Shown here: one piece after another, positions 35-42,439 of the stretch
How the letters are laid out: each line of letters starts with the position of its first letter
Numbering within the stretch: the first letter of the stretch is position 1
The notes under the pieces: model-generated
The model's input: only the letters and a program-made list of their open reading frames with translations
What the model was told of the DNA's origin: nothing
The model's database searches: none
NCBI RefSeq assembly: GCF_000003605.2
Contig: NW_003136143.1
Span: forward strand, 1-42,439
Direction: 5' to 3'
Length of the DNA: 42,439 nt
Origin: Saccoglossus kowalevskii
Lineage: Eukaryota; Hemichordata; Enteropneusta; Harrimaniidae
Made by a program: the position numbers and the translations under genes

Positions 35-53
35 TTGCATTGCCCATACCTGA

Positions 54-70
54 CCCTAACCCTAACCCTA
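54..70 (+). repeat. Near-perfect triple telomere hexamer in the first monomer
   Basis: Two CCCTAA units are followed by CCCTA before the sequence turns into TATATGCC. This is the longest telomere-like run at the array edge and lies only about 20 bases inside the proposed boundary. Confidence 0.9.
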
Positions 71-240
71 TATATGCCAAGACACGTTCCTGTTAATAAT
101 TCCGTTGTCCACACCTGACCTGACCCTAACCATAATGCCAAGACACGTTCCTGTTAATAATTCCGTTGCCCATACCTGACCTGACCCTAACCCTAATGCC
201 AAGACACGTTCCTGTTAATAATTCTGTTGCCCATACCTGA

Positions 241-258
241 CCCTAACCCTAACCCTAA
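241..258 (+). repeat. Perfect (CCCTAA)3 within a monomer
   Basis: Here the usual CCCGACCCTAACCCTAA tract reads as three exact CCCTAA hexamers. The previous copy has the TTCTGTTG variant at 222. Both features recur with the same spacing at 7061 and 7080. Confidence 0.95.
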
Positions 259-599
259 TGCCAAGACACGTTCCTGTTAATAAATCCGTTGCCCATACCT
301 GACCTGACCCTAACCCCAATGCCAAGACATGTTCCTGTTAATAATTCCGTTGCCCATACCTGACCCGACCCTAACCCCAATGCCAAGACACGTTCCTGTT
401 AATAATTCCATTGCCCATACCTGACCCGACCCTAACCCCAATGCCAAGACATGTTCCTGTTAATAATTCCATTGCCTATACCTGACCTGACCCTAACCCC
501 AATGCCAAGACATGTTCCTGTTAATAATTCCATTGCCTATACCTGACCTGACCCTAACCCTAATGCCAAGACACGTTCCTGTTAATAATTCCGTTGCCC

Positions 600-2286
600 A
601 TACCTGACCCGACCCTAACCCCAATGCCAAGACACGTTCCTGTTAATAATTCCGTTGCCCATACCTGACCTGACCCTAACCCTAATGCCAAGACATGTTC
701 CTGTTAATAATTCCGTTGCCCATACCTGACCCGACCCTAACCCCAATGCCAAGACACGTTCCTGTTAATAATTCCGTTGCCCATACCTGACCCGACCCTA
801 ACCCTAATCCCAAGACATGTTCCTGTTAATAATTCCGTTGCCCATACCTGACCCGACCCTAAACCTAATGCCAAGACACGTTCCTGTTAATAATTCCGTT
901 GCCCATACCTGACCCGACCCTTACCCTAATCCCAAGACACGTTCCTGTTAATAATTCCGTTGCCCATACCTGACCCGACCCTAAACCTAATGCCAAGACA
1001 CGTTCCTGTTAATAATTCCGTTGCCCATACCAGACCCGACCCTAACCCTAATCCCAAGACATGTTCCTGTTAATAATTCCGTTGCCCATACCTGACCCGA
1101 CCCTAACCCTAATCCCAAGACATGTTCCTGTTAATAATTCCGTTGCCCATACCTGACCCGACCCTACCTTAATGCCAAGACACGTTCCTGTTAATAATTC
1201 CGTTGCCCATACCTGACCCGACCCTTACCCTAATCCCAAGACACGTTCCTGTTAATAATTCCGTTGCCCATACCTGACCTGACCCTAACCCTAATGCCAA
1301 GACATGTTCCTGTTAATAATTCCGTTGCCCATACCTGACCCGACCCTAACCCTAATGCCAAGACACGTTCCTGTTAATAATTCCGTTGCCTATACCTGAC
1401 CCGACCCTAACCCTAATGCCAAGACATGTTCCTGTTAATAATTCCGTTGCCTATACCTGACCTGACCCTTACCCTAATGCCAAGACACGTTCCTGTTAAT
1501 AATTCCGTTGCCCATACCTGACCCGACCCTAACCCTAATGCCAAGACACGTTCCTGTTAATAATTCCATTGTCTATACCTGACCTGACCCTAACCCCAAT
1601 GCCAAGACACGTTCCTGTTAATAATTCCGTTGCCCATACCTGACCCGACCCTAACCCTAATGCCAAGACACGTTCCTGTTAATAATTCCGTTGCCCATAC
1701 CTGACCCGACCCTAACCCCAATGCCAAGACATGTTCCTGTTAATAATTCCGTTGCCCATACCTGACCCGACCCTAACCCTAATGCCAAGACACGTTCCTG
1801 TTAATAATTCCGTTGCCCATACCTGACCCGACCCTAACCCTAATGCCAAGACACGTTCCTGTTAATAATTCCGTTGCCCATACCTGACCTGACCCTAACC
1901 CCAATGCCAAGACATGTTCCTGTTAATAATTCCGTTGCCCATACCTGACCCGACCCTAACCCTAATGCCAAGACACGTTCCTGTTAATAATTCCGTTGTC
2001 CATACCTGACCCGACCCTAACCCTAATGCCAAGACATGTTCCTGTTAATAATTCCGTTGCCTATACCTGACCCGACCCTAACCCTAATGCCAAGACACGT
2101 TCCTGTTAATAATTCCGTTGCCCATACCTGACCCGACCCTAACCCTAATGCCAAGACATGTTCCTGTTAATAATTCCGTTGCCCATACCTGACCCGACCC
2201 TAACCCTAATGCCAAGACATGTTCCTGTTAATAATTCCGTTGCCCATACCTGACCCGACCCTAACCCTAATGCCAAGACATGTTCC
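600..2286 (+). repeat. Mixed-variant block of the 61-bp satellite
   Basis: This stretch holds only satellite copies. Between 780 and 1260 many copies read TAATCCCAAG instead of TAATGCCAAG, and the core alternates between CTAAACCTAA, CTTACCCTAA and CTAACCCTAA. After 1260 the GCCAAG form dominates again. ACATGTTC and ACACGTTC copies are intermixed, with no sustained higher-order period that I could follow. Confidence 0.85.
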
Positions 2287-2700
2287 TGTTAATAATTCCG
2301 TTGCCCATACATGACCCGACCCTAACCCTAATGCCAAGACACGTTCCTGTTAATAATTCCATTGTCCATACCTGACCCGACCCTAAACCTAATGCCAAGA
2401 CATGTTCCTGTTAATAATTCCGTTGCCCATACATGACCCGACCCTAACCCTAATGCCAAGACACGTTCCTGTTAATAATTCCGTTGTCCATACCTGACCC
2501 GACCCTAAACCTAATGCCAAGACATGTTCCTGTTAATAATTCCGTTGCCCATACATGACCCGACCCTAACCCTAATGCCAAGACACGTTCCTGTTAATAA
2601 TTCCGTTGTCCATACCTGACCCGACCCTAAACCTAATGCCAAGACATGTTCCTGTTAATAATTCCGTTGCCCATACATGACCCGACCCTAAACCTAATGC
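2287..2700 (+). repeat. 122-bp dimer higher-order repeat
   Basis: Two monomer types alternate. Type A has CCCATACATGACCCG and is followed by the ACACGTTC form. Type B has GTTGTCCATACCTG with a TAAACCTAA core and is followed by ACATGTTC. The rare ACATGACC marker falls at 2309, 2431, 2553 and 2675, exactly 122 bp apart, giving about 3.5 dimers. The last copy already carries TAAACC after the marker, so the block edge is hybrid. Confidence 0.93.
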
Positions 2701-4330
2701 CAAGACACGTTCCTGTTAATAATTCCGTTGCCCATACCTGACCCGACCCTAACCCTAATGCCAAGACACGTTCCTGTTAATAATTCCGTTGCCCATATCC
2801 TGACCCGACCCTAACCCTAATGCCAAGACACGTTCCTGTTAATAATTCCGTTGCCCATACCTGACCCGACCCTAACCCTAATGCCAAGACATGTTCCTGT
2901 TAATAATTCCGTTGCCCATACCTGACCCGACCCTTACCCTAATGCCAAGACACGTTCCTGTTAATAATTCCATTGCCCATACCTGACCCGACCCTAACCC
3001 TAATGCCAAGACATGTTCCTGTTAATAATTCCGTTGCCCATACCTGACCCGACCCTAACCCTAATGCCAAGACATGTTCCTGTTAATAATTCCGTTGCCC
3101 ATACCTGACCCGACCCTAACCCTAATGCCAAGACACGTTCCTGTTAATAATTCCGTTGCCCATACCTGACCCGACCCTAACCCTAATCCCAAGACACGTT
3201 CCTGTTAATAATTCCGTTGCCCATACCTGACCCGACCCTAACCCTAATGCCAAGACACGTTCCTGTTAATAATTCCGTTGCCCATACCTGACCCGACCCT
3301 AACCCTAATGCCAAGACACGTTCCTGTTAATAATTCCGTTGCCCATACCTGACCCGACCCTAACCCTAATGCCAAGACACGTTCCTGTTAATAATTCCGT
3401 TGCCCATACCTGACCCGACCCTAACCCTAATGCCAAGACACGTTCCTGTTAATAATTCCGTTGCCTATACCTGACCCGACCCTAACCCTAATGCCAAGAC
3501 ACGTTCCTGTTAATAATTCCGTTGCCCATACCTGACCCGACCCTAACCCTAATGCCAAGACGCGTTCCTGTTAATAATTCCGTTGCCCATACCTGACCCG
3601 ACCCTTACCCTAATTGTCAAGACACGTTCCTGTTAATAATTCCGTTGCCCATACCTGACCCGACCCTAACCCTAATGCCAAGACACGTTCCTGTTAATAA
3701 TTCCGTTGTCCATACCTGACCCGACCCTAACCCTAATCCCAAGACACGTTCCTGTTAATAATTCCGTTGCCCATACCTGACCCGACCCTTACCCTAATCC
3801 CAAGACACGTTCCTGTTAATAATTCCGTTGCCCATACCTGACCCCACCCTAACCCTAATGCCAAGACATGTTCCTGTTAATAATTCCGTTGCCCATACCT
3901 GACCCGACCCTAACCCTAATGCCAAGACACGTTCCTGTTAATAATTGCATTGCCCATACCTGACCCGACCCTAATCCTAATGCCAAGACACGTTCCTGTT
4001 AATAATTCCGTTGCCCATACCTGACCCGACCCTAACCCTAATCCCAAGACATGTTCCTGTTAATAATTCCGTTGCCCATACCTGACCTGACCCTAACCCT
4101 AATGCACAAGACACGTTCCTGTTAATAATTCCGTTGCCTATACCTGACCCGACCCTTACCCTAATCTCAAGACACGTTCCTGTTAATAATTCCGTTGCCC
4201 ATACCTGACCTGACCCTAACCCTAATGCCAAGACACGTTCCTGTTAATAATTCCGTTGCCCATACCTGACCTGACCCTAACCCTAATGCCAAGACATGTT
4301 CCTGTTAATAATTCCGTTGCCTATACCTGA
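2700..4330 (+). repeat. Near-consensus satellite block
   Basis: Copies here are close to consensus, most uniformly at 3080-3600, where successive units differ at only a few sites. Rare markers are GACGCGTTC near 3561, an extra base in TAATTGTCAAG near 3612, TTGCATTG at 3945 and ATGCACAAG near 4103. Apart from these I see only satellite. Confidence 0.85.
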
Positions 4331-4590
4331 CCCGACCTTAACCCTAATGCCAAGACACGTTCCTGTTAATAATTCCGTTGTCTATACCTGACCCGACCCT
4401 AACCCTAATGCCAAGACATGTTCCTGTTAATAATTCCGTTGTCCATACCTGACCCGACCTTAACCCTAATGCCAAGACATGTTCCTGTTAATAATTCCGT
4501 TGTCCATACCTGACCCGACCCTAACCCTAATGCCAAGACATGTTCCTGTTAATAATTCCGTTGTCCATACCTGACCCGACCTTAACCCTA
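4330..4590 (+). repeat. 122-bp dimer repeat marked by GACCTTAACC
   Basis: The core variant GACCTTAACC occurs at 4334, 4456 and 4578, each 122 bp apart, alternating with ordinary GACCCTAACC copies. Most copies also share GTTGTCCAT or GTTGTCTAT and the ACATGTTC form. Confidence 0.85.
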
Positions 4591-4805
4591 ATGCCAAGAC
4601 ACGTTCCTGTTAATAATTCCGTTGCCCATACCTGACCTGACCCTAACCCTAATGCCAAGACATGTTCCTGTTAATAATTCCGTTGCCCATACCTGACCCG
4701 ACCCATAACCATAATGCCAAGACGCGTTCCTGTTAATAATTCCGTTGCCCATACCAGACCTGACCTCTAACCCTAATCCCAAGACACGTTCCTGTTAATA
4801 ATTCC

Positions 4806-6250: not shown

Positions 6251-6254
6251 CACG

Positions 6255-6975
6255 TTCCTGTTTATAATTCCGTTGCCCATACCTGACCCGACCCTAACCC
6301 TAATGCCAAGACACGTTCCTGTTAATAATTCCGTTGCCCATACCTGACCCGACCCTAACCCTAATGCCAAGACACGTTCCTGTTTATAATTCCGTTGCCC
6401 ATACCTGACCCGACCCTAACCCTAATGCCAAGACACGTTCCTGTTAATAATTCCGTTGCCCATACCTGACCCGACCCTAACCCTAATACCAAGACACGTT
6501 CCTGTTAATAATTCCGTTGCCCATACCTGACCCGACCCTAACCCTAATACCAAGACACGTTCCTGTTAATAATTCCGTTGCCCATACCTGACCCGATCCT
6601 AACCCTAATGCCAAGACGCGTTCCTGTTTATAATTCCGTTGCCCATACCTGACCCGATCCTAACCCTAATGCCAAGACACGTTCCTGTTAATAATTCCGT
6701 TGCCCATACCTGACCCGATCCTAACCCTAATGCCAAGACGCGTTCCTGTTTATAATTCCGTTGCCCATACCTGACCCGATCCTAACCCTAATACCAAGAC
6801 ACGTTCCTGTTTATAATTCCGTTGCCCATACCTGACCCGATCCTAACCCTAATGCCAAGACACGTTCCTGTTAATAATTCCGTTGCCCATACCTGACCCG
6901 ATCCTAACCCTAATGCCAAGACGCGTTCCTGTTTATAATTCCGTTGCCCATACCTGACCCGATCCTAACCATAAT
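6255..6975 (+). repeat. Block with GTTTATAATT, GACGCG and GATCCTAACC variants
   Basis: The AT-rich box reads GTTTATAATT at 6260, 6382, 6626, 6748, 6809 and 6931, so the spacing is mainly 122 or 244 bp. From 6590 the telomere flank reads CCCGATCCTAACC in every copy, and GACGCGTTC appears at 6616, 6738 and 6921. Some copies read TAATACCAAG. The linked rare variants mark a locally amplified dimer family. Confidence 0.9.
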
Positions 6976-7800
6976 ACCAAGACACGTTCCTGTTAATAAT
7001 TCCGTTGCCCATACCTGACCTGACCCTAACCCTAATGCCAAGACACGTTCCTGTTAATAATTCTGTTGCCCATACCTGACCCTAACCCTAACCCTAATGC
7101 CAAGACACGTTCCTGTTAATAATTCCGTTGCCCATACCTGACCCAACCCTAACCCTAATGCCAAGACACGTTCCTGTTAATAATTCCATTGCCCATACCT
7201 GACCCGACCCTAACCCCAATGCCAAGACATGTTCCTGTTAATAATTCCATTGCCTATACCTGACCTGACCCTAACCCCAATGCCAAGACACGTTCCTGTT
7301 AATAATTCCGTTGCCCATACCTGACCTGACCCTAACCCCAATGCCAAGACACGTTCCTGTTAATAATTCCGTTGCCCATACCTGACCCGACCCTAACCCC
7401 AATGCCAAGACACGTTCCTGTTAATAATTCCGTTGCCCATACCTGACCTGACCCTAACCCCAATGCCAAGACATGTTCCTGTTAATAATTCCATTGCCTA
7501 TACCTGACCTGACCCTAACCCTAATGCCAAGACACGTTCCTGTTAATAATTCCGTTGCCCATACCTGACCCGACCCTAACCCCAATGCCAAGACACGTTC
7601 CTGTTAATAATTCCGTTGCCCATACCTGACCTGACCCTAACCCCAATGCCAAGACACGTTCCTGTTAATAATTCCGTTGCCCATACCTGACCCGACCCTA
7701 ACCCCAATGCCAAGACACGTTCCTGTTAATAATTCCGTTGCCCATACCTGACCCGACCCTTACCCTAATGCCAAGACACGTTCCTGTTAATAATTCCGTT
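6969..7800 (+). repeat. Segment paralogous to the left edge of the array
   Basis: The order ACCATAAT, then TTCTGTTG at 7061, then (CCCTAA)3 at 7080 matches 130, 222 and 241, each offset by 6839 bp. Further on, TTCCATTGCCCAT followed by a CCCCAA core, ACATGTTC and CCATTGCCTAT resembles 408-540, now with an offset of 6778 bp, one monomer less. This indicates an old segmental duplication with a one-monomer difference. Confidence 0.82.
7080..7097 (+). repeat. Perfect (CCCTAA)3 within a monomer
   Basis: Three exact telomere hexamers lie inside a single monomer. It is the paralogue of the run at 241-258, preceded by the same TTCTGTTG monomer. Confidence 0.95.
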
Positions 7801-7810
7801 GCCCATACCT

Positions 7811-8230
7811 GACCCTACCCTAACCCCAATGCCAAGACACGTTCCTGTTAATAATTCCGTTGCCCATACCTGACCCACCCTAACCCTAATGCCAAGACAC
7901 GTTCCTGTTAAATAATTCCGTTGCCCATACCTGACCCTACCCTAACCCTAATGCCAAGACACGTTCCTGTTAAATAATTCCGTTGCCCATACCTGACCCG
8001 ACCCTAACACTAATGCCAAGACACGTTCCTGTTAATAATTCCGTTGCCCATACCTGACCCTACCCTAACCCCAATGCCAAGACACGTTCCTGTTAATAAT
8101 TCCGTTGCCCATACCTGACCCACCCTAACCCTAATGCCAAGACACGTTCCTGTTAAATAATTCCGTTGCCCATACCTGACCCTACCCTAACCCCAATGCC
8201 AAGACACGTTCCTGTTAATAATTCCGTTGC
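7811..8230 (+). repeat. About 245-bp tetramer repeat with 60-bp and 62-bp monomers
   Basis: GACCCTACCCTAACCCC starts at 7811 and again at 8056, 245 bp apart. Both are followed by a 60-bp copy with GACCCACCC (one base short) and a 62-bp copy with GTTAAATAATTCC (one A extra). The indels are shared between the two halves, so they were present before duplication and are true sequence variants. Confidence 0.88.
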
Positions 8231-9240
8231 CCATACCTGACCCGACCCTAATCCTAATGCCAAGACACGTTCCTGTTAATAATTCCGTTGCCCATACCTG
8301 ACCTGACCCTAACCCTAATGCCAAGACACGTTCCTGTTAATAATTCCGTTGCCCATACCTGACCTGACCCTAACCCTAATGCCAAGACACGTTCCTGTTA
8401 ATAATTCCGTTGCCCATACCTGACCTGACCCTAACCCTAATGCCAAGACACGTTCCTGTTAATAATTCCGTTGCCCATACCTGACCCGACCCTAACCCTA
8501 ATGCCAAGACACGTTCCTGTTAAATAATTCCGTTGCCCATACCCTGACCCGACCCTAACACTAATGCCAAGACATGTTCCTGGTTAATAATTCCGTTGCC
8601 CCATACCTGACCCTAACCCTAACCCTAATGCCAAGACATGTTCCTGTTAATAATTCCGTTGCCTATACCTGACCCAACCCTAACCCCAATGCCAAGACAT
8701 GTTCCTGTTAATAATTCCGTTGCCCATACCTGACCCGACCCTAACCCTAATGCCAAGACATGTTCCTGTTAATAATTACGTTGCCCATACCTGACCCGAC
8801 CCTAACCCCAATGCCAAGACATGTTCCTGTTAATAATTCCGTTGCCCATACCTGACCCGACCCTAACCCTAATGCCAAGACACGTTCCTGTTAATAATTC
8901 CGTTGCCCATACCTGACCCGACCCTAACCCTAATGCCAAGACATGTTCCTGTTAATAATTCCGTTGTCCATACCTGACCCGACCCTAATCCTAATGCCAA
9001 GACATGTTCCTGTTAATAATTCCGTTGCCCATACCTGACCTGACCCTAACCCCAATGCCAAGACATGTTCCTGTTAATAATTCCGTTGCCCATACCTGAC
9101 CCGACCCTAACCCTAATGCCAAGACATGTTCCTGTTAATAATTCCGTTGCCCATACCTGACCCGACCCTAACCCTAATGCCAAGACATGTTCCTGTTAAT
9201 AATTCCGTTGCCCATACCTGACCCGACCCTTACCCTAATG
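8230..9240 (+). repeat. Satellite block with a small insertion cluster and a telomere triplet
   Basis: Copies from 8230 to 8520 are uniform, with CCTGACC in most. At 8520-8605 four one-base gains occur together: GTTAAATAATT, ACCCTGACC, CTGGTTAATAA and TGCCCCATACC. Immediately after, (CCCTAA)3 lies at 8611-8628. Copies after 8630 are rich in ACATGTTC. Confidence 0.85.
8611..8628 (+). repeat. Perfect (CCCTAA)3 within a monomer
   Basis: Three exact telomere hexamers lie directly downstream of a cluster of one-base insertions. The preceding monomer lacks the TTCTGTTG marker found before the other two perfect triplets, so this may be an independent conversion of CCCGACC to CCCTAACC. Confidence 0.95.
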
Positions 9241-11640
9241 CCAAGACACGTTCCTGTTAATAATTCCGTTGTCTATACCTGACCTGACCTTAACCCTAAT
9301 GCCAAGACATGTTCCTGTTAATAATTCCGTTGCCCATACCTGACCCGACCCTTACCCTAATGCCAAGACACGTTCCTGTTAATAATTCCGTTGCCTATAC
9401 CTGACCCGACCCTAACCCCAATGCCAAGACACGTTCCTGTTAATAATTCCATTGTCTATACCTGACCTGACCTTAACCCTAATGCCAAGACATGTTCCTG
9501 TTAATAATTCCGTTGCCTATACCTGACCCGACCCTAACCCCAATGCCAAGACATGTTCCTGTTAATAATTCCGTTGCCCATACCTGACCCGACCCTTACC
9601 CTAATGCCAAGACATGTTCCTGTTAATAATTCCGTTGCCCATACCTGACCCGACCTTAACCCTAATGCCAAGACACGTTCCTGTTAATAATTCCGTTGCC
9701 TATACCTGACCCGACCCTAACCCTAATGCCAAGACACGTTCCTGTTAATAATTCCGTTGCCTATACCTGACCCGACCCTTACCCTAATCCCAAGACACGT
9801 TCCTGTTAATAATTCCGTTGCCCATACCTGACCTGACCCTAACCCTAATGCCAAGACATGTTCCTGTTAATAATTCCGTTGCCCATACCTGACCCGACCC
9901 TAACCCTAATGCCAAGACACGTTCCTGTTAATAATTCCGTTGCCTATACCTGACCCGACCCTTACCCTAATCCCAAGACACGTTCCTGTTAATAATTCCG
10001 TTGCCCATACCTGACCTGACCCTAACCCCAATGCCAAGACACGTTCCTGTTAATAATTCCGTTGCCCATACCTGACCTGACCCTAACCCTAATGCCAAGA
10101 CACGTTCCTGTTAATAATTCCGTTGCCCATACCTGACCCGACCCTAACCCTAATGCCAAGACACGTTCCTGTTAATAATTCCGTTGCCCATACCTGACCC
10201 GACCCTTACCCTAATGCCAAGACACGTTCCTGTTAATAATTCCGTTGCCTATACCTGACCCGACCCTAACCCTAATGCCAAGACACGTTCCTGTTAATAA
10301 TTCCGTTGCCTATACCTGACCCGACCCTTACCCCAATGCCAAGACACGTTCCTGTTAATAATTCCGTTGCCCATACCTGACCTGACCCTAACCCCAATGC
10401 CAAGACATGTTCCTGTTAATAATTCCATTGCCCATACCTGACCCGACCCTAACCCCAATGCCAAGACATGTTCCTGTTAATAATTCCGTTGCCCATACCT
10501 GACCTGACCCTAACCCCAATGCCAAGACACGTTCCTGTTAATAATTCCATTGCCCATACCTGACCCGACCCTAACCCTAATGCCAAGACATGTTCCTGTT
10601 AATAATTCCGTTGCCCATACCTGACCTGACCCTAACCCCAATGCCAAGACATGTTCCTGTTAATAATTCCATTGCCCATACCTGACCTGACCCTTACCCT
10701 AATGCCAAGACATGTTCCTGTTAATAATTCCGTTGCCCATACCTGACCCGACCCTAACCCTAATGCCAAGACATGTTCCTGTTAATAATTCCGTTGCCCA
10801 TACCTGACCCGACCCTAACCCCAATGCCAAGACACGTTCCTGTTAATAATTCCGTTGCCTATACCTGACCTGACCCTAACCCTAATGCCAAGACATGTTC
10901 CTGTTAATAATTCCATTGTCTATACCTGACCTAACCCTAACCCCAATGCCAAGACATGTTCCTGTTAATAATTCCATTGTCTATACCTGACCTAACCCTA
11001 ACCCCAATGCCAAGACACGTTCCTGTTAATAATTCCGTTGCCTATACCTGACCTGACCCTAACCCCAATGCCAAGACACGTTCCTGTTAATAATTCCGTT
11101 GCCTATACCTGACCCGACCCTAACCCTAATGCCAAGACATGTTCCTGTTAATAATTCCGTTGCCCATACCTGACCCGACCCTTACCCTAATGCCAAGACA
11201 TGTTCCTGTTAATAATTCCGTTGCCCATACCTGACCCGACCCTTACCCTAATGCCAAGACATGTTCCTGTTAATAATTCCGTTGCCCATACCTGACCTGA
11301 CCCTAACCCTAATGCCAAGACATGTTCCTGTTAATAATTCCGTTGCCCATACCTGACCTGACCCTAACCCTAATGCCAAGACATGTTCCTGTTAATAATT
11401 CCGTTGCCCATACCTGACCTGACCCTAACCCTAATGCCAAGACATGTTCCTGTTAATAATTCCATTGTCTATACCTGACCTAACCCTAACCCCAATGCCA
11501 AGACATGTTCCTGTTAATAATTCCGTTGCCCATACCTGACCTGACCCTAACCTAATGCCAAGACATGTTCCTGTTAATAATTCCATTGTCTATACCTGAC
11601 CCGACCCTAACCCCAATGCCAAGACATGTTCCTGTTAATA
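9240..11640 (+). repeat. Diverse block rich in CTTACCC, CCCCAA and GTCTAT variants
   Basis: Only satellite is present. GTCTATACCTGACCTGACCTTAACC-type copies occur at 9271 and 9454, 183 bp apart. At 10917-11030 two neighbouring copies combine CCATTGTCTAT with GACCTAACCCTAACCCC and ACATGTTC, and a third occurs near 11464; these copies restore part of a third telomere hexamer. ACATGTTC is frequent throughout. Confidence 0.83.
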
Positions 11641-12060
11641 ATTACGTTGCCCATACCTGACCTGACCCTAACCCTAATGCAAAACACGTTCTGTAATAAT
11701 TACGTTGCCCATACTGACCCGACCCTAACCTAATGCAAGACACGTTCCTGTTAATAATTACGTTGCCCATACTGACCCGACCCTAACCCTAATGCCAAAA
11801 CACGTTCCTGTTAATAATTACGTTGCCCATACCTGACCCGACCCTAACCCTAATGCCAAGACACGTTCCTGTTAATAATTACGTTGCCCATACCTGACCC
11901 GACCCTAACCCTAATGCCAAGACACGTTCCTGTTAATAATTACGTTGCCCATACCTGACCCGACCCTAACCCTAATGCCAAAACACGTTCCTGTTAATAA
12001 TTACGTTGCCCATACCTGACCCGACCCTAACCCTAATGCCAAGACACGTTCCTGTTAATA
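11636..12060 (+). repeat. Block with ATTACGTTG variant and a deletion cluster
   Basis: About seven neighbouring copies read ATTACGTTG instead of ATTCCGTTG, and three read CCAAAACACG. Within 11680-11770 bases are lost from doubled letters: TGCAAAACACG, GTTCTGTAATAATT, CATACTGACC and AACCTAATGCAAG. The block therefore combines a real linked variant with either decay or consensus error. Confidence 0.87.
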
Positions 12061-12239
12061 ATTCCATTGCCCATACCTGACCCAACCCTAATCCTAATGC
12101 CAAGACACGTTCCTGTTAATAATTCCGTTGCCCATACCTGACCCGACCCTAACCCTAATCCCAAGACACGTTCCTGTTAATAATTCCGTTGCCCATACCT
12201 GACCCGACCCTAACCCTAATGCCAAGACATGTTCCTGTT

Positions 12240-13080
12240 AATAATTCCGTTGCCCATACCTGACCCGACCCTTACCCTAATCCCAAGACACGTTCCTGTT
12301 AATAATTCCGTTGCCCATACCTGACCCGACCCTAACCCTAATGCCAAGACATGTTCCTGTTAATAATTCCGTTGCCCATACCTGACCCGACCCTTACCCT
12401 AATCCCAAGACATGTTCCTGTTAATAATTCCGTTGCCCATACCTGACCCGACCCTTACCCTAATCCCAAGACATGTTCCTGTTAATAATTCCGTTGCCCA
12501 TACCTGACCCGACCCTTACCCTAATGCCAAGACACGTTCCTGTTAATAATTCCGTTGCCCATACCTGACCCGACCCTTACCCTAATCCCAAGACATGTTC
12601 CTGTTAATAATTCCGTTGCCCATACCTGACCCGACCCTTACCCTAATCCCAAGACATGTTCCTGTTAATAATTCCGTTGCCCATACCTGACCCGACCCTT
12701 ACCCTAATCCCAAGACATGTTCCTGTTAATAATTCCGTTGCCCATACCTGACCCGACCCTTACCCTAATCCCAAGACATGTTCCTGTTAATAATTCCGTT
12801 GCCCATACCTGACCCGACCCTTACCCTAATCCCAAGACACGTTCCTGTTAATAATTCCGTTGCCCATACCTGACCCGACCCTAACCCTAATGCCAAGACA
12901 TGTTCCTGTTAATAATTCCGTTGCCCATACCTGACCCGACCCTTACCCTAATCCCAAGACATGTTCCTGTTAATAATTCCGTTGCCCATACCTGACCCGA
13001 CCCTTACCCTAATCCCAAGACATGTTCCTGTTAATAATTCCGTTGCCCATACCTGACCCGACCCTTACCCTAATGCCAAG
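12240..13080 (+). repeat. Homogenised CTTACCCTAATCCC block
   Basis: Nearly every copy carries CCCGACCCTTACCCTAATC joined to CCAAGACATGTTC. The linkage of CTTACCC, ATCCC and ACATG over about a dozen consecutive copies shows recent local amplification of one monomer type. A few copies revert to CTAACCC or ACACG. Confidence 0.9.
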
Positions 13081-13930
13081 ACACGTTCCTGTTAATAATT
13101 ACGTTGCCCATACCTGACCCGACCCTAACCCTAATGCCAAAACACGTTCCTGTTAATAATTCCGTTGCCCATACCTGACCTGACCCTAACCCTAATGCCA
13201 AGACACGTTCCTGTTAATAATTCCGTTGTCCATACCTGACCTGACCCTAACCCTAATGCCAAGACACGTTCCTGTTAATAATTCCGTTGCCCATACCTGA
13301 CCTGACCCTAACCCTAATGCCAAGACACGTTCCTGTTAATAATTACGTTGTCCATACCTGACCCGACCCTAAACCTAATGCCAAGACACGTTCCTGTTAA
13401 TAATTCCATTGCCCATACCTGACCCGACCCTAACTCTAATGCAAGACACGTTCCTGTTAATAATTCCGTTGCCCATACTGACCCGACCCTAACTCTAATG
13501 CAAGACACGTTCCTGTTAATAATTCCGTTGCCCATACTGACCCGACCCTAACCCTAATGCAAGACACGTTCCTGTTAATAATTCCGTTGCCCATACCTGA
13601 CCCGACCCTTACCCTAATGCCAAGACATGTTCCTGTTAATAATTCCGTTGCCCATACCTGACCCACCCTAACCCCAATGCCAAGACACGTTCCTGTTAAT
13701 AATTCCGTTGACCATACCTGACCCACCCTAACCCCAATGCCAAGACACGTTCCTGTTAATAATTCCATTGCCCATACCTGACCCGACCCTAACCCTAATG
13801 CCAAGACACGTTCCTGTTAATAATTCCGTTGCCCATACCTGACCCACCCTAACCCTAATGCCAAGACACGTTCCTGTTAATAATTCCATTGCCCATACCT
13901 GACCCGACCCTAACCCTAATGCCAAGACAC
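13080..13930 (+). repeat. Block with one-base deletions, paralogous to 14885-15300
   Basis: Two AACTCTAAT copies (13434, 13493) are followed by a CTTACCC copy (13609), two 60-bp GACCCACCCTAACCCC copies, one of which carries GTTGACCAT at 13707, and a CCATTG copy (13765). The same order occurs 1461 bp downstream. Between 13440 and 13570 this copy has lost bases that its paralogue keeps: GCAAGAC for GCCAAGAC and CATACTG for CATACCTG. A further CCATTG copy at 13886 reflects an extra 121-bp step here. Confidence 0.87.
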
Positions 13931-14880
13931 GTTCCTGTTAATAATTCCGTTGCCCATACCTGACCCGACCCTAACCCTAATCCCAAGACACGTTCCTGTT
14001 AATAATTCCGTTGCCCATACCTGACCCGACCCTTACCCTAATGCCAAGACACGTTCCTGTTAATAATTCCGTTGCCCATACCTGACCCGACCCTAACCCT
14101 AATGCCAAGACACGTTCCTGTTAATAATTCCGTTGCCCATACCTGACCCGACCCTAACCCTAATGCCAAGACACGTTCCTGTTAATAATTCCGTTGCCCA
14201 TACCTGACCCGACCCTAACCCTAATGCCAAGACACGTTCCTGTTAATAATTCCGTTGCCCATACCTGACCCGACCCTAACCCTAATGCCAAGACACGTTC
14301 CTGTTAATAATTCCGTTGCCCATACCTGACCCGACCCTAACCCTAATGCCAAGACACGTTCCTGTTAATAATTCCGTTGCCCATACCTGACCCGACCCTA
14401 ACCCTAATGCCAAGACACGTTCCTGTTAATAATTCCGTTGCCCATACCTGACCCGACCCTAACCCTAATGCCAAGACACGTTCTTGTTAATAATTCCGTT
14501 GCCCATACCTGACCCGACCCTTACCCTAATGCCAAGACACGTTCCTGTTAATAATTCCGTTGCCCATACCTGACCCGACCCTTACCCTAATGCCAAGACA
14601 CGTTCCTGTTAATAATTCCGTTGCCCATACCTGACCCGACCCTAACCCTAATGCCAAGACACGTTCTTGTTAATAATTCCGTTGCCCATACCTGACCCGA
14701 CCCTAACCCTAATGCCAAGACACATTCCTGTTAATAATTCCGTTGCCCATACCTGACCCGACCCTAACCCTAATGCCAAGACACGTTCCTGTTAATAATT
14801 CCGTTGCCCATACCTGACCCGACCCTTACCCTAATGCCAAGACACGTTCCTGTTAATAATTCCGTTGCCCATACCTGACC
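13930..14880 (+). repeat. Highly uniform near-consensus block
   Basis: Most copies match the consensus exactly, alternating only between CTAACCC and CTTACCC. The rare GTTCTTGTTAA variant occurs at 14481 and 14664, 183 bp apart, indicating trimer-sized copying. This stretch is the best reference for the consensus. Confidence 0.88.
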
Positions 14881-14884
14881 CGAC

Positions 14885-15400
14885 CCTAACTCTAATGCCA
14901 AGACACGTTCCTGTTAATAATTCCGTTGCCCATACCTGACCCGACCCTAACTCTAATGCCAAGACACGTTCCTGTTAATAATTCCGTTGCCCATACCTGA
15001 CCCGACCCTAACCCTAATGCCAAGACACGTTCCTGTTAATAATTCCGTTGCCCATACCTGACCCGACCCTTACCCTAATGCCAAGACATGTTCCTGTTAA
15101 TAATTCCGTTGCCCATACCTGACCCACCCTAACCCCAATGCCAAGACACGTTCCTGTTAATAATTCCGTTGACCATACCTGACCCACCCTAACCCCAATG
15201 CCAAGACACGTTCCTGTTAATAATTCCATTGCCCATACCTGACCCGACCCTAACCCTAATGCCAAGACACGTTCCTGTTAATAATTCAGTTGCCCATACC
15301 TGACCCGACCCTAACCCTAATCCCAAGACACGTTCCTGTTAATAATTCCGTTGCCCATACCTGACCCAACCCTAACCCTAATGCCAAGACACGTTCCTGT
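14885..15400 (+). repeat. Intact paralogue of 13430-13930
   Basis: AACTCTAAT occurs twice (14888 and 14949), followed by a CTTACCC copy (15070), two GACCCACCCTAACCCC copies with GTTGACCAT at 15168, and CCATTG at 15226. The offset to the upstream segment is 1461 bp at the CTTACCC and GTTGACCAT markers. All monomers here keep their doubled letters, except the shared one-base-short GACCCACCC units. Confidence 0.88.
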
Positions 15401-18140
15401 TAATAATTCCGTTGCCCATACCTGACCCGACCCTAACCCTAATGCCAAGACATGTTCCTGTTAATAATTCCGTTGCCCATACCTGACCCGACCCTAACCC
15501 TAATCCCAAGACATGTTCCTGTTAATAATTCCGTTGCCCATACCTGACCCGACCCTAACCCTAATGCCAAGACATGTTCCTGTTAATAATTCCGTTGCCC
15601 ATACATGACCCGACCCTAACCCTAATCCCAAGACACATTCCTGTTAATAATTCCGTTGCCCATACCTGACCTGACCCTAACCCTAATGCCAAGACATGTT
15701 CCTGTTAATAATTCCGTTGCCCATACCTGACCCGACCCTAACCCTAATCCCAAGACACGTTCCTGTTAATAATTCCGTTGCCCATACCTGACCTGACCCT
15801 AAACCTAATGCCAAGACACGTTCCTGTTAATAATTCCGTTGCCCATACCTGACCCGACCCTAACCCTAATGCCAAGACACGTTCCTGTTAATAATTCCGT
15901 TGCCCATACCTGACCTGACCCTAACCCTAATGCCAAGACACGTTCCTGTTAATAATTCCGTTGCCCATACCTGACCCGACCCTAACCCTAATGCCAAGAC
16001 ATGTTCCTGTTAATAATTCCGTTGCCCATACCTGACCTGACCCTAACCCTAATGCCAAGACATGTTCCTGTTAATAATTCCGTTGCCCATACCTGACCCG
16101 ACCCTAACCCTAATCCCAAGACACGTTCCTGTTAATAATTCCGTTGCCCATACCTGACCCGACCCTAACCCTAATGCCAAGACATGTTCCTGTTAATAAT
16201 TCCGTTGCCCATACCTGACCTGACCCTAACCCTAATGCCAAGACATGTTCCTGTTAATAATTCCGTTGCCCATACCTGACCCGACCCTAACCCTAATCCC
16301 AAGACACGTTCCTGTTAATAATTCCGTTGCCCATACCTGACCTGACCCTAACCCTAATGCCAAGACACGTTCCTGTTAATAATTCCGTTGCCCATACCTG
16401 ACCCGACCCTAACCCTAATGTCAAGACACGTTCCTGTTAATAATTCCGTTGCCCATACCTGACCCGACCCTAACCCTAATCCCAAGACATGTTCCTGTTA
16501 ATAATTCCGTTGCCCATACCTGACCCGACCCTAACCCTAATCCCAAGACACGTTCCTGTTAATAATTCCGTTGCTCATACCTGACCTGACCCTAACCCTA
16601 ATCCCAAGACATGTTCCTGTTAATAATTCCGTTGCCCATACCTGACCCGACCCTAACCCTAATGCCAAGACATGTTCCTGTTAATAATTCCGTTGCCCAT
16701 ACCTGACCCGACCCTTACCCTAATGCCAAGACACGTTCCTGTTAATAATTCCGTTGCCCATACCTGACCCGACCCTAAACCTAATGCCAAGACACGTTCC
16801 TGTTAATAATTCCGTTGCCCATACCTGACCCGACCCTAACCCTAATGCCAAGACATGTTCCTGTTAATAATTCCGTTGCCCATACCTGACCCGACCCTTA
16901 CCCTAATGCCAAGACACGTTCCTGTTAATAATTCCGTTGCCCATACCTGACCCGACCCTAACCCTAATCCCAAGACACGTTCCTGTTAATAATTCCGTTG
17001 CCCATACCTGACCTGACCCTAACCCTAATGCCAAGACACGTTCCTGTTAATAATTCCGTTGCCCATACCTGACCCGACCCTAACCCTAATGCCAAGACAC
17101 GTTCCTGTTAATAATTCCGTTGCCCATACCTGACCCGACCCTAAACCTAATGCCAAGACACGTTCCTGTTAATAATTCCGTTGCCCATACCTGACCCGAC
17201 CCTAACCCTAATGCCAAGACACGTTCCTGTTAATAATTCCGTTTGCCCATACCTGACCCGACCCTAAACCTAATGCCAAGACACGTTCCTGTTAATAATT
17301 CCGTTGCCCATACCTGACCCGACCCTAACCCTAATGCCAAGACACGTTCCTGTTAATAATTCCGTTGCCCATACCTGACCTGACCCTTACCCTAATGCCA
17401 AGACACGTTCCTGTTAATAATTCCGTTGCCCATACCTGACCCGACCCTAACCCTAATGCCAAGACACGTTCCTGTTAATAATTCCGTTGCCCATACCTGA
17501 CCCGACCCTAACCCTAATGCCAAGACACGTTCCTGTTAATAATTCCGTTGCCCATACCTGACCTAACCCTAACCCTAATGCCAAGACATGTTCCTGTTAA
17601 TAATTACGTTGCCCATACCTGACCTGACCCTAACACTAATCCCAAGACACGTTCCTGTTAATAATTCCGTTGCCCATACCTGACCCGACCCTAACCCTAA
17701 TGCCAAGACACGTTCCTGTTAATAATTACGTTGCCCATACCTGACCCGACCCTAACCCTAATGCCAAGACATGTTCCTGTTAATAATTCCGTTGCCCATA
17801 CCTGACCCGACCCTAACCCTAATCCCAAGACACGTTCCTGTTAATAATTCCGTTGCCCATACCTGACCCGACCCTAACCCTAATGCCAAGACACGTTCCT
17901 GTTAATAATTCCGTTGCCCATACCTGACCCCACCCTAACCCTAATGCCAAGACACGTTCCTGTTAATAATTCCGATGCCCATACCTGACCCGACCCTAAC
18001 CCTAATGCCAAGACACGTTCCTGTTAATAATTCCGTTGCCCATACCTGACCCGACCCTAACCCTAATGCCAAGACACGTTCCTGTTAATAATTCCGTTGC
18101 CCATACCTGACCCGACCCTAACCCTAATGCCAAGACACGT
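15400..18140 (+). repeat. Satellite block with trimer repeat and alternating CTAAACC copies
   Basis: At 15980-16345 a trimer of CCCGACC/GCCAAGACATG, CCTGACC/GCCAAGACATG and CCCGACC/TCCCAAGACACG is present twice (183 bp). CATACATGACC recurs near 15603. Around 17130-17340, CTAAACCTAA copies alternate with CTAACCCTAA copies, and one copy has an extra T (GTTTGCCC near 17243). ATTACG copies appear near 17605 and 17727. I see no other sequence type. Confidence 0.83.
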
Positions 18141-30420: not shown

Positions 30421-30900
30421 TGCCAATACCTGACCCGACCCTAACCCTAATGCCAAGACACGTTCCTGTTAATAATTTCGTTGCCAATACCTGACCCGAC
30501 CCTAACCCTAATGCCAAGACATGTTCCTGTTAATAATTTCGTTGCCAATACCTGACCCGACCCTAACCCTAATGCCAAGACATGTTCCTGTTAATAATTC
30601 CGTTGTCTATACCTGACCTGACCCTAACCCTAATGCCAAGACATGTTCCTGTTAATAATTTCGTTGCCCATACCTGACCTGACCCTAACCCTAATGCCAG
30701 ACATGTTCCTGTTAATAATTTCGTTGCCCATACTGACCCACCCTAACCCAATGCAAGACATGTTCATGTTAATAATTCCGTTGGCCCATACTGACCCGAC
30801 CCTAACCCTAATCCAAGACATGTTCCTGTTAATAATTCCGTTGCCCATACTGACCTGACCCTAAACGTAATGACAAGACACGTTCCTGTTAATAATTCCG
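30410..30900 (+). repeat. TTTCGTTG block with a strong deletion cluster
   Basis: AATTTCGTTGCCAAT appears in three consecutive copies near 30415, 30476 and 30537, and TTTCGTTGCCC in the next ones. From 30695 to 30875 one-base changes cluster: GCCAGACATG, CATACTGACCCACCC, AACCCAATGCAAG, TTGGCCCATACTG and ATCCAAG. These losses shift frames and create a short open reading frame on each strand; I treat neither as a gene. Confidence 0.87.
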
Positions 30901-35985: not shown

Positions 35986-36099
35986 ACCTAATGCCAAGAC
36001 ACGTTCCTGTTAATAATTCCGTTGCCCATACCTGACCCGACCCTAACCCTAATGCCAAGACACGTTCCTGTTAATAATTCCGTTGCCCATACCTGACCC

Positions 36100-36480
36100 G
36101 ACCCTAACCCTAATGCCCAGACACGTTCCTGTTAATAATTCCGTTGCCCATACCTGACCCGACCCTAATCCTAATGCCAAGACACGTTCCTGTTATAATT
36201 CCGTTGTCCATACCTGACCCCACCCTAACCCTAATGCAGACATGTCCTGTAATAATTCCGTTGCCCATACTGACCCGACCTTACCCTAATGCCAAGACGC
36301 GTTCCTGTTAATAATTCCGTTGCCCATACGTGACTGACCCTAACCCTAATGCCAAGACACGTTCCTGTTAATAATTCCGTTGCCCATACTGACCCGACCC
36401 TAACCGTAATGCCAAGACACGTTCCTGTTAATAATTCCGTTGCCCATACCTGACCCGACCCTAACCCTAATGCCAAGACA
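36100..36480 (+). repeat. Deletion-rich island in the satellite
   Basis: One-base losses cluster at 36190-36390: TGTTATAATTCC, AATGCAGACATGTCCTGTAA, CATACTGACCCGACCTTACC, CGTGACTGACCC and CATACTGACC. Flanking copies on both sides are near consensus. The short open frame on the minus strand here is a by-product of the frameshifts. Confidence 0.87.
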
Positions 36481-37950: not shown

Positions 37951-40525
37951 GTTAATATATTCCGTTGCTCATACCTGACCCGACCCTTACCCTAATGCCA
38001 AGACACGTTCCTGTTAATAATTCCGTTGCCCATACCAGACCCGACCCTAACCCTAATCCCAAGACACATTCCTGTTAATAATTCCGTTGCCCATACCAGA
38101 CCCCACCCTAACCCTAATCCCAAGACACGTTCCTGTTAATAATTCCGTTGCCCATACCAGACCCGACCCTAACCCTAATGCCAAGACACGTTCCTGTTAA
38201 TAATTCCGTTGCCCATACCAGACCCGACCCTAACCCTAATGCCAAGACACGTTCCTGTTAATAATTCCGTTGCTCATACCTGACCCGACCCTAACCCTAA
38301 TGCCAAGACACGTTCCTGTTAATAATTCCGTTGCTCATACCTGACCCGACCCTAACCCTAATGCCAAGACACGTTCCTGTTAATAATTCCGTTGCCCATA
38401 CCTGACCCGACCCTAACCCTAATGCCAAGACACGTTCCTGTTAATAATTCCGTTGCCCATACCTGACCCGACCCTAACCCTAATGCCAAGACACGTTCCT
38501 ATTAATAATTCCGTTGCCCATACCTGACCCGACCCTTACCCTAATGCCAAGACACGTTCCTGTTAATAATTCCGTTGCTCATACCTGACCCGACCCTAAC
38601 CCTAATGCCAAGACACGTTCCTGTTAATAATTCCGTTGCTCATACCTGACCCGACCCTAACCCTAATGCCAAGACACGTTCCTGTTAATAATTCCGTTGC
38701 CCATACCTGACCCGACCCTAACCCTAATGCCAAGACACGTTCCTGTTAATAATTCCGTTGCCCATACCAGACCCCACCCTTACCCTAATGCCAAGACACG
38801 TTCCTGTTAATAATTCCGTTGCTCATACCTGACCCGACCCTAACCCTAATGCCAAGACACGTTCCTGTTAATAATTCCGTTGCCCATACCTGACCCGACC
38901 CTAACCCTAATGCCAAGACACGTTCCTGTTAATAATTCCGTTGCCCATACCTGACCCGACCCTTACCCTAATGCCAAGACACGTTCCTGTTAATAATTCC
39001 GTTGCTCATACCTGACCCGACCCTAACCCTAATGCCAAGACACGTTCCTGTTAATAATTCCGTTGCTCATACCTGACCCGACCCTAACCCTAATGCCAAG
39101 ACACGTTCCTGTTAATAATTCCGTTGCCCATACCTGACCCGACCCTAACCCTAATGCCAAGACACGTTCCTGTTAATAATTCCGTTGCCCATACCAGACC
39201 CCACCCTTACCCTAATGCCAAGACACGTTCCTGTTAATAATTCCGTTGCTCATACCTGACCCGACCCTAACCCTAATGCCAAGACACGTTCCTGTTAATA
39301 ATTCCGTTGCTCATACCTGACCCGACCCTAACCCTAATGCCAAGACACGTTCCTGTTAATAATTCCGTTGCCCATACCTGACCCGACCCTAACCCTAATG
39401 CCAAGACACGTTCCTGTTAATAATTCCGTTGCCCATACCAGACCCCACCCTTACCCTAATGCCAAGACACGTTCCTGTTAATAATTCCGTTGCTCATACC
39501 TGACCCGACCCTAACCCTAATGCCAAGACACGTTCCTGTTAATAATTCCGTTGCTCATACCTGACCCGACCCTAACCCTAATGCCAAGACACGTTCCTGT
39601 TAATAATTCCGTTGCCCATACCAGACCCCACCCTTACCCTAATGCCAAGACACGTTCCTGTTAATAATTCCGTTGCTCATACCTGACCCGACCCTAACCC
39701 TAATGCCAAGACACGTTCCTGTTAATAATTCCGTTGCTCATACCTGACCCGACCCTAACCCTAATGCCAAGACACGTTCCTGTTAATAATTCCGTTGCCC
39801 ATACCAGACCCCACCCTTACCCTAATGCCAAGACACGTTCCTGTTAATAATTCCGTTGCTCATACCTGACCCGACCCTAACCCTAATGCCAAGACACGTT
39901 CCTGTTAATAATTCCGTTGCTCATACCTGACCCGACCCTAACCCTAATGCCAAGACACGTTCCTGTTAATAATCCCGTTGCCCATACCTGACCCGACCCT
40001 AACCCTAATGCCAAGACACGTTCCTGTTAATAATTCCGTTGCCCATACCAGACCCCACCCTTACCCTAATGCCAAGACACGTTCCTGTTAATAATTCCGT
40101 TGCTCATACCTGACCCGACCCTAACCCTAATGCCAAGACACGTTCCTGTTAATAATTCCGTTGCCCATACCTGACCCCACCCTAACCCTAATGCCAAGAC
40201 ACGTTCCTGTTAATAATTCCGTTGCCCATACCTGACCCCACCCTAACCCTAATGCCAAGACACGTTCCTGTTAATAATTCCGTTGCCCATACCAGACCCC
40301 ACCCTTACCCTAATGCCAAGACACGTTCCTGTTAATAATTCCGTTGCCCATACCAGACCCCACCCTAACCCTAATGCCAAGACACGTTCCTGTTAATAAT
40401 TCCGTTGCCCATACCTGACCCCACCCTAACCCTAATGCCAAGACACGTTCCTGTTAATAATTCCGTTGCCCATACCAGACCCCACCCTTACCCTAATGCC
40501 AAGACACGTTCCTGTTAATAATTCC
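37950..40525 (+). repeat. 3-4-monomer higher-order repeat marked by CCAGACCCCACCC and GCTCAT
   Basis: The first part (38020-38230) has consecutive CATACCAGACC copies. Then a recurring unit appears: one CATACCAGACCCCACCCTTACC monomer, two GTTGCTCAT monomers, and zero or one GTTGCCCAT monomers. The CCAGACCCC marker lies at 38767, 39194, 39438, 39621, 39804, 40048, 40292, 40353 and 40475; the steps are 427, 244, 183, 183, 244, 244, 61 and 122 bp, all multiples of 61. Sequence identity between units is very high, suggesting recent amplification with gain and loss of whole monomers. Confidence 0.92.
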
Positions 40526-42220
40526 GTTGCTCATACCTGACCCGACCCTAACCCTAATGCCAAGACACGTTCCTGTTAATAATTCCGTTGCTCATACCTA
40601 ACCCGATCCTAACCCTAATGCCAAGACACGTTCCTGTTAATAATTCCGTTGCTCATACCTAACCCGATCCTAACCCTAATGCCAAGACACGTTCCTGTTA
40701 ATAATTCCGTTGCTCATACCTGACCCGACCCTTACCCTAATGCCAAGACACGTTCCTGTTAATAATTCCGTTGCCCATACCTGACCCGACCCTAACCCTA
40801 ATGCCAAGACATGTTCCTGTTAATAATTCCGTTGCCCATACCTGACCCGACCCTTACCCTAATGCCAAGACACGTTCCTGTTAATAATTCCGTTGCCCAT
40901 ACCAGACCCCACCCTAACCCTAATGCCAAGACATGTTCCTGTTAATAATTCCGTTGCCCATACCTGACCCGACCCTAACCCTAATGCCAAGACACGTTCC
41001 TGTTAATAATTCCGTTGCCCATACCTGACCCGACCCTAACCCTAATGCCAAGACACGTTCCTGTTAATAATTCCGTTGCCCATACCTGACCCGACCCTTA
41101 CCCTAATGCCAAGACACGTTCCTGTTAATAATTCCGTTGCCCATACCTGACCCGACCCTTACCCTAATGCCAAGACACGTTCCTGTTAATAATTCCGTTG
41201 CTCATACCTAACCCGATCCTAACCCTAATGCCAAGACACGTTCCTGTTAATAATTCCGTTGCTCATACCTGACCCGACCCTTACCCTAATGCCAAGACAC
41301 GTTCCTGTTAATAATTCCGTTGCTCATACCTGACCCGACCCTAACCCTAATGCCAAGACACGTTCCTGTTAATAATTCCGTTGCTCATACCTGACCCGAT
41401 CCTAACCCTAATGCCAAGACACGTTCCTGTTAATAATTTCCGTTGCTCATACCTGACCCGACCCTTAACCCTAATGCCAAGACACGTTCCTGTTAATAAT
41501 TCCGTTGCCCATACCTGACCCGACCCTAACCCTAATCCCAAGACATGTTCCTGTTAATAATTCCGTTGACCATACCTGACCCGACCCTTACCCTAATGCC
41601 AAGACACGTTCCTGTTAATAATTCCGTTGCCCATACCTGACCCGACCCTAACCCTAATGCCAAGACACATTCCTGTTAATAATTCCGTTGCCCATATCTG
41701 ACCCGACCCTAACCCTAATGTCAAGACACGTTCCTGTTAATAATTCCGTTGCCCATACCTGACCCGACCCTAACCCTAATGCCAAGACATGTTCCTGTTA
41801 ATAATTCCGTTGCCCATACCTGACCCAACCCTAACCCTAATCCCAAGACACATTCCTGTTAATAATTCCGTTGCCCATACCTGACCCGACCCTAACCCTA
41901 ATGCCAAGACATGTTCCTGTTAATAATTCCGTTGCCCATACCTGACCCCACCCTAACCCTAATCCCAAGACACGTTCCTGTTAATAATTCCGTTGCCCAT
42001 ACCTGACCTGACCCTAACCCTAATGCCAAGACACGTTCCTGTTAATAATTCCGTTGCCCATACCTGACCCGACCCTAACCCTAATCCCAAGACATGTTCC
42101 TGTTAATAAATTCCGTTGACCATACCTGACCCGACCCTAAACCCTAATGCCAAGACATGTTCCTGTTAATAATTCCGTTGACCATACCTGACCCGACCCT
42201 AACCCTAATACCAAGACACA
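40525..42220 (+). repeat. Block with GCTCATACCTAACCCGATCC copies, then mixed copies
   Basis: The linked variants GCTCAT, CCTAACCCGATCC appear in two adjacent copies (about 40590 and 40651) and again near 41200. One further CCAGACCCC copy lies at 40902. From 41530 to 42220 copies mix ACATGTTC, ACACATTCC, TAATCCCAAG and GTTGACCAT. Isolated one-base gains occur at about 41438, 41466 and 42110. Confidence 0.85.
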
Positions 42221-42439
42221 TTCCTGTTATAATTCCGTTGCCCATACCTGACCCGACCCTTACCCAATCCCAGACACGTTCCTGTTAATAATTCCGTTGC
42301 CCATACCTGACCCGACTCTTACCTAATGCCAAGACATGTTCTGTATAATTCCGTTGCCCATACTGACCCGACCTACCTAATGCCAGACACGTTCCTGTTA
42401 ATATTCGTTGCTCATACCTGACCGACCTACCCTATGCCA
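42220..42439 (+). repeat. Right end of the window, deletion-rich monomers
   Basis: Losses build up towards the last base: GTTATAATTCC, CCCAATCCCAGACACG, GACTCTTACCTAATG, GTTCTGTATAATTCC, CATACTGACCCGACCTACC, TAATATTCGTTG and GACCGACCTACCCTATGCC. The window stops inside a monomer. This could be a contig end with poor consensus or the decayed edge of the array. Confidence 0.88.

Follow-up and report, generated by a model that had tools for sequence, protein, structure and literature searches.

Introduction

Four described systems come closest to the sequence considered here. Tetris of Drosophila virilis is described as a foldback transposon whose terminal inverted repeats hold a variable number, up to 66, of internal tandem repeats (TIR-220); satellite arrays of kilobase size also consist of these repeats and arose within the element, unequal crossing-over being proposed (PMC4079207). 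The Cg_HINE elements, non-autonomous Helentrons of Crassostrea gigas, are reported to contain tandem repeats between conserved left and right segments, with a microsatellite-like stretch on the left and, in some elements, two consecutive arrays (PMC7492417). For satellites of the miDNA4 type, which derive from miniature inverted-repeat transposable elements (MITEs), the model put forward is that the monomer is born inside the element and is then amplified and homogenised (PMC9659126). Interstitial telomeric sequences and the het-ITS satellites are characterised as runs of hexamers (PMC6410037, PMC9498494). Here, we describe a satellite of the hemichordate Saccoglossus kowalevskii, which occupies contig NW_003136143.1 (42,439 bp, hereafter the window) from base 40 to its end and whose 61-bp monomer contains a telomere-like core. 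The array is very probably derived from a 61-bp internal segment of a dispersed element that was expanded in tandem.

Results

Organization of the 61-bp array

The window is the whole of one contig (C2814), and the genome searched was its own assembly of 572,110,611 bases in 4830 contigs. Tandem Repeats Finder returned one array at 40–42439 with a period of 61, 695.6 copies and 96% matches, and wraparound alignment of the window gave 696 monomer rows, the final one being truncated by the contig end. The monomer consensus is TTGCCCATACCTGACCCGACCCTAACCCTAATGCCAAGACACGTTCCTGTTAATAATTCCG. The head-to-tail array is uniform in orientation, because the count of TTAGGG on the + strand of the window is 0. 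A sequence-only reading had placed a large satellite of about 695 monomers at 35–42439. The copy number, period, orientation and the single large array were all borne out, whereas the true start is at 40 and bases 1–39 are flank. The features of the window are as follows.

1–39, + strand: partial left flank of the dispersed repeat element, inside which the window begins (flank comparison and probe match)
40–42439, + strand: satellite array of the 61-bp monomer, about 695 copies in one orientation, running off the right contig end (Tandem Repeats Finder, wraparound alignment)
40–104, + strand: monomer 1, at the edge of the array; it contains CCTGA, CCCTAA twice and then a third unit, CCCTA, after which bases are inserted (sequence, alignment insertions)
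236–258, + strand: example of a 62-bp variant monomer, CCTGA followed by three CCCTAA (alignment; three consecutive CCCTAA also at 7080 and 8611)
42178–42439, + strand: last five rows, with 1, 2, 4 and 7 bases deleted and then the row cut by the contig end (alignment)

The monomer is an internal segment of a dispersed repeat

A 24-base flank probe, TGCCAATTGGGTGTTTGCCATTTG, was found at 49 places in the genome and its reversed control at none; it matches window positions 14–37 with two mismatches. A second probe of 28 bases, lying just left of the first, was found at 58 places (control 0), and places found with the second probe only were left out of the family counts. The 46 slices that were read cover 47 of the 49 probe places; the window is the 48th and C4441 was left out. 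Window positions 1–43 differ from the majority of the 46 element copies at 4 of 43 bases, and the other copies differ at 0 to 14.

The monomer is an internal segment of dispersed copies with constant flanks: in isolated copies it is preceded by ...GCATGCCATAACCCGTTAGTGTACATCTTGCCAATTGGGTGTTTGCCATTTGCG and, where the right side is reached, followed by (T)TAATAATTGCTCAATAATGATACTCTGTTGTGCACTGTCTGCGGG... The right flank lay within the slice in 34 of the 46 copies. Eighteen of these have one complete monomer, 11 have two, three have three and two have a shortened unit of 57–58 bp; one copy counted as single-monomer (L069) also has a second, truncated monomer. The remaining 12 copies, in which no right flank was recognised in the slice, were left out of this distribution, and one of them (L094) contains four monomers by eye. 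The exact 40-bp non-telomeric part of the monomer occurs 367 times: 270 in the window, 90 in contig C521, two in C853 and one each in C205, C1161, C1555, C1796 and C2598. As these counts sum to 367, the list of exact forms is complete for the assembly.

The long copies are homologous over a span that reaches, relative to the probe, from about –588 to +1083 or beyond. A TATA-type microsatellite lies some 100 bp to the left of the flank probe, and on the right there is a tandem array of 92-bp units in 9.5 to 14.9 copies. Long terminal or self-inverted repeats were not found at E 1e-8 in eight loci, four of them with masked stretches. Some copies lie deep inside long contigs, for example at base 1,662,347 of a 1,946,473-base contig.

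A few further observations were made around individual copies. ARAGORN reported no tRNA genes in five loci (L036, L066, L068, L069 and L070). Stretches resembling a tRNA T-arm (e.g. GGATTCGAACC) were seen by eye left of the probe in L036, L069, L070 and L112–L114, and also at the right ends of L068 and L112. In L086 (contig C3478, 41985–42303), two left flanks of the element stand head-to-head about 215 bp apart. An open reading frame with an ISXO2-like (DDE_Tnp_IS1595) transposase domain lies at L113 1060–2157 on the minus strand, beyond an element copy that has no 92-bp array, and was seen in one copy only.

Junctions between monomers and the proposed founding duplication

With a slash marking the monomer edge, the left boundary of single copies reads CCATTTG/CGTTGCCC and the right boundary of the older type reads AATAATTG/TAGCTC. 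The trinucleotide TTG is present at both boundaries as a 3-bp microhomology, and joining at this shared TTG predicts the junction AATAATTG/CGTTGCCC. Among the 32 junction strings in the slices, four of which come from the edge of the C521 array, CCG was found 22 times, CTG three times, the predicted GCG twice and five others made up the rest. Both GCG strings are in L094, where they account for two of its three junctions, and GCA, GTG and ACG were found in L098 and L103. CCG is one change away from the predicted GCG and was counted at 589 junctions in the window; it is this CCG lineage that gave rise to the large arrays. Some of the copies with the older GTAGCTC right flank contain a single monomer. 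Because arrays can contract, the order from one monomer to two rests on the junction letters and not on the counts alone.

Long arrays and their probable shared lineage

In contig C521 (16,779 bp), a large array is enclosed between the two element flanks, the right one at 1–19 and the left one at 16299–16350. Its size of about 267 units is arithmetic from the flank positions, and the part at 6432–15999 is known only as exact 40-mer matches. The window, which shows the left flank only, has the same arrangement as C521, with about 695 units and its right end outside the contig.

The monomers of both arrays have one common consensus, and variant frequencies differ between C521 and the window (A24T, 15.8% vs 3.4%). 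The non-CpG change G33C was found in 9.9% of the monomers in the window and in 13.6% of those in C521, but in none of the 57 gap-free dispersed monomers from 38 loci. Since this change is shared by the long arrays and absent from the dispersed monomers, the long arrays probably descend from one expanded lineage, or exchange units. G33C, seen at monomer position 33 in the window and in L037–L065 of C521, thereby also hints at one founder array that moved or exchanged.

A third array lies on C1161 (14,575 bp), of which 4576 bases were read at both ends and between. Where read, it consists of a 50-bp monomer, with 60 copies and 98% matches in one slice (L067), and its main unit (AATCC) also has G33C. 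Exact CCCTAACCCTAA, the double-hexamer core of the 61-bp monomer, occurs 0 times in these 4576 bases, and 11 bp of the core are gone. Because the array has the derived AATTCCG junction, the absence of the core is a secondary 11-bp loss. Growth of an array, or at least its survival, was thus possible in the absence of the telomere-like core.

Proposed origin of the satellite

From these observations, the following course of events is proposed. A 61-bp segment, single-copy in the dispersed repeat, would have been duplicated in tandem at the 3-bp microhomology TTG. A lineage whose junction had changed to AATTCCG would then have spread with two or few copies, presumably by transposition of the family. 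In that lineage, arrays of hundreds of units may have formed through slippage or unequal exchange, accompanied by short-range homogenisation; rolling-circle reinsertion is a possible alternative route of growth. The telomere-like core would have been carried along within the amplified segment. The window array is expected to end in the same right flank, so that TTGCTCAATAATGATACTC and then the 92-bp array should follow.

Several observations weigh against this origin or parts of it. No element ends, target-site duplications or mobilising enzyme were found in the copies read, so that transposition of the family is inferred. The subterminal inverted repeats (subTIRs) of Helentrons were not found either: two copies gave no shared 11-mer inverted pair and counts within those of shuffles, the 3' palindrome not being sought. 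The exact founder string is present in only 2 of the 32 dispersed-copy junctions, and the GCG junction is absent from the window. A single-monomer copy could also be the contraction of a longer array. When only 61-bp monomers were compared (634 from the window and 88 from C521), the mean difference between the two arrays was 2.64, against 2.75 within the window and 2.39 within C521; a between-array difference no larger than that within arrays speaks against fully independent growth. There was also no element flank in the parts of C1161 that were read, and the right end of the window array is not within the contig.

The telomere-like core

The exact core CCCTAACCCTAA is present in 416 of the 696 aligned rows, with at most one mismatch in 684 and with no more than two in 693; a plain string count without overlaps gives 413 occurrences in the window. 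The telomere-like order within the consensus is CCTGA-CCCGA-CCCTAA-CCCTAA. The sequence-only reading, in which each monomer has this core or a one-step variant of it after CCTGA and CCCGA, was thus confirmed. Its view of CCTGA and CCCGA as decayed CCCTAA units found weak support, as 192 of 5000 shuffles of these 11 bases scored equally well, and shuffles were equally telomere-like in 480 of 5000 cases for the 19 bases preceding the core and in 455 of 2000 for all 49 bases outside it.

Among the dispersed copies, the exact double hexamer is present in 13 of the 18 with a single monomer. In first monomers, the 12-mer is exact in 23 of the 27 copies with the younger right flank and in 3 of the 7 with the older GTAGCTC type, the remainder deviating from it by one to a few changes. 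When the monomer was shuffled, 28 of 200,000 permutations contained a telomeric 12-mer, whatever its phase or strand. For this monomer by itself, the motif thus exceeds what composition would give by chance, although the comparison was made post hoc.

These figures bear on the possibility that the core is a true telomere fragment which entered an ancestor of the element long before the satellite formed, for example by break repair or by insertion at a chromosome end. The rarity of the 12-mer among shuffles, its retention in copies of both flank types and the CCCTAA tracts in other repeats of the genome favour such an entry. On the other side, there are two hexamers only, with CCTGA and CCCGA barely above shuffles, and by estimate one such 12-mer may arise by luck among many families. 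Moreover, L105, which is among the most diverged copies, reads ACCCAAACCCTA in place of the core, and this could be ancestral or decayed. We regard an ancestral telomere fragment as possible but unlikely.

A conserved functional telomeric core was considered and rejected, as the core shows no less variation than the remainder of the unit: the rate of non-CpG substitutions was 0.023 in the 22-bp telomere-like stretch and 0.013 elsewhere (permutation p 0.18, for a higher rate). A centromeric box of the CENP-B type was also rejected, the best fit having three mismatches to the essential bases of the motif. The G strand is quadruplex-prone (G4Hunter 1.52). No canonical quadruplex with loops of 1–7 was found in the consensus, and variant monomers give 60 non-overlapping canonical quadruplexes in the window.

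Alternatives considered: direct capture, a satellite-first origin and assembly quality

The sequence-only reading had proposed that a short interstitial telomere tract was captured beside a segment of about 40 bp and that this composite was directly amplified. Part of this stands, since the core is real, matches the telomere repeat with which another contig of the genome (C4632) begins, and a short segment was amplified. The core holds a perfect telomeric run of 13 bp, and at four places in the window, including the first monomer, CCTGA is followed by three units of the CCCTAA type. But the core and the 40-bp segment did not meet at the formation of the satellite: the 61-bp segment, core included, is single between fixed flanks in the 18 single-monomer copies among the 34 countable ones, and the core is no better conserved than its surroundings. 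For the satellite itself, direct capture thus appears to be largely refuted by the single-monomer copies, and we consider it very improbable.

The reverse order, in which the satellite came first and the dispersed copies are its contracted or scattered pieces, could draw on the fact that the exchange that expands arrays also contracts them to one unit, and on the CCG junction common to most multi-copy elements. It is hardly compatible, however, with flanks that are shared by the long copies outside the array and that predict the junction, with single-monomer copies among those of the older flank type, or with the lack of G33C in dispersed monomers, and so little credence can be given to it. 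The preferred origin remains the expansion of a segment internal to the dispersed element.

The texture of the array bears on its nature and on its length. The mean pairwise divergence of monomers in the window is 4.85%. Neighbouring monomers differ at 2.36 positions (lag 1) and those at lags 20–30 at about 2.8, and three multi-monomer blocks are shared, as against 0 in each of five order shuffles. This decay of similarity with lag, together with the shared blocks, indicates concerted evolution with short-range homogenisation within the window array; no higher-order period was found in it. With tens of kilobases of head-to-tail monomers and local homogenisation, the array is satellite DNA. Of its 1060 substitutions, 377 are CpG transitions at three CpG sites (6 of the 61 positions), an excess as would be expected if the array is cytosine-methylated.

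Single-base deletions are clustered in the window at 11633–11809, 13395–13573, 30650–30887, 36130–36426 and 42178–42439. Of the 89 deleted positions, 66 lie within single-base runs, which make up 62% of monomer positions, and about 25 of the 89 are merely the contig end. The internal clusters are probably uncorrected read errors, and the deletion-rich last rows most likely reflect poor consensus quality rather than biology. That the length of the array is an assembly artefact, to which these clusters and the contig end inside the array might point, is scarcely credible given 247 distinct monomer sequences, 107 of 696 rows identical to the consensus, the distance-dependent similarity, and a second contig (C521) with both flanks and its own variant frequencies.

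Chromosome ends, other repeats and database searches

According to Tandem Repeats Finder, contig C4632 starts at base 1 with 41.7 CCCTAA units, and the telomere repeat of the genome is therefore of the same kind as the core. Neither Tandem Repeats Finder nor blastn found a 61-bp array in this contig (27,060 bases, 856 of them masked in one slice). C4632 also contains tandem arrays of 31 bp and of 209/422 bp and a reverse transcriptase (PF00078), at L034 7429–9408, L035 5136–7060 and L034 3203–4594. On contig C3217, three CCCTAA tracts of the same orientation are present at L020 5887–6227 and 7626–7732 and at L021 191–280. They lie about 1.7 and 2.6 kb apart, each after a similar stretch of about 130 bp (by eye), and near them is a 439-aa open frame without a Pfam match. 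These tracts possibly belong to a mobile element associated with telomeres, in an animal whose telomeres are of the TTAGGG type. A short dispersed MITE-like element was seen by eye in L025, L026, L029, L030 and L032 (half of it in L027), with inverted ends CCCTAA...TTAGGG around about 80–100 bp and AAACG repeats as borders. An SPTLC1-like exon is also present in the genome, and C4830 has a match to COX1. In a non-random sample of 117,684 unmasked bases, taken from contigs chosen for their telomere hexamers, the GC content was 36.7% and the CpG observed/expected ratio 0.81.

The exact monomer 42-mer had no match in a general collection of genome contigs, and a monomer 24-mer had none in viral contigs. 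A degenerate monomer pattern matched eight bacterial places once each, which was judged to be chance, and a telomere-period pattern was found at two places of one viral contig. The monomer had no blastn match at E 0.01 in loci L001–L033. Window positions 1–4000 matched no phages or plasmids, and positions 1–3000 had no Rfam match. Six monomer words of 13 or 14 letters were contained in no paper text, within the limits of a text search. A published twin of the monomer may exist, Repbase, Dfam and animal nucleotide collections being outside the scope of these searches.

Discussion

The satellite described here is a new and well-documented instance of a known process, in a series that is unusually full within one assembly. 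The birth of a satellite is usually inferred afterwards, and here much of the series is preserved: beside the same flank, the segment stands in one to four, in about 267 and in about 695 copies. The founding junction is present as well and, as a natural control, so is an array that has lost the telomere-like core. The core is an inherited part of the element, and nothing observed indicates that it promotes expansion or functions as telomeric DNA. Telomere-like motifs in satellites thus need not stem from the amplification of telomeres, and a TTAGGG probe could light up such arrays, which might be misread as an old chromosome fusion.

It is conceivable, though we hold it to be highly improbable, that the element keeps a captured telomere fragment for a putative role in telomere-protein binding or fork stalling. 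This idea is prompted by the exact double hexamer in 416 of 696 monomers and by the G4Hunter score. If it were true, the spread of the element would scatter such sites, and its eruptions into about 267 and 695 units would be internal platforms with hundreds of sites for telomere proteins. The 50-bp array without the core speaks against a part of the core in driving growth, though not against binding.

When compared with the known systems as they are described in the sources cited, the locus resembles het-ITS satellites in having a TTAGGG-type motif at non-terminal sites (PMC6410037, PMC9498494). The two differ in that here two hexamers are embedded in each 61-bp monomer, which comes from a dispersed repeat; three consecutive CCCTAA occur at only three places, so that the hexamer runs of het-ITS are lacking. 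The element origin of the monomer, its amplification and its homogenisation are as in the satellites of the miDNA4 type, although no terminal inverted repeats were found here (PMC9659126). With Tetris, the locus has in common that variable internal tandem repeats of a dispersed element gave rise to a satellite; unlike in Tetris, the unit is of 61 bp, the arrays have about 267 and 695 units and no self-inverted repeat was found in eight loci (PMC4079207). The working principle would accordingly be Tetris-like by analogy, and with no long terminal inverted repeats in those eight loci the element does not group with the foldback family. Unlike Cg_HINE, no subTIRs were found in the two copies searched, but the flanked tandem repeats, the microsatellite on the left and the consecutive arrays, here of 61 bp and then 92 bp, are all like those of Cg_HINE (PMC7492417). 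By analogy, the microsatellite and the two consecutive arrays offer a lead for the class of the carrier, which may be a Helentron-like element.

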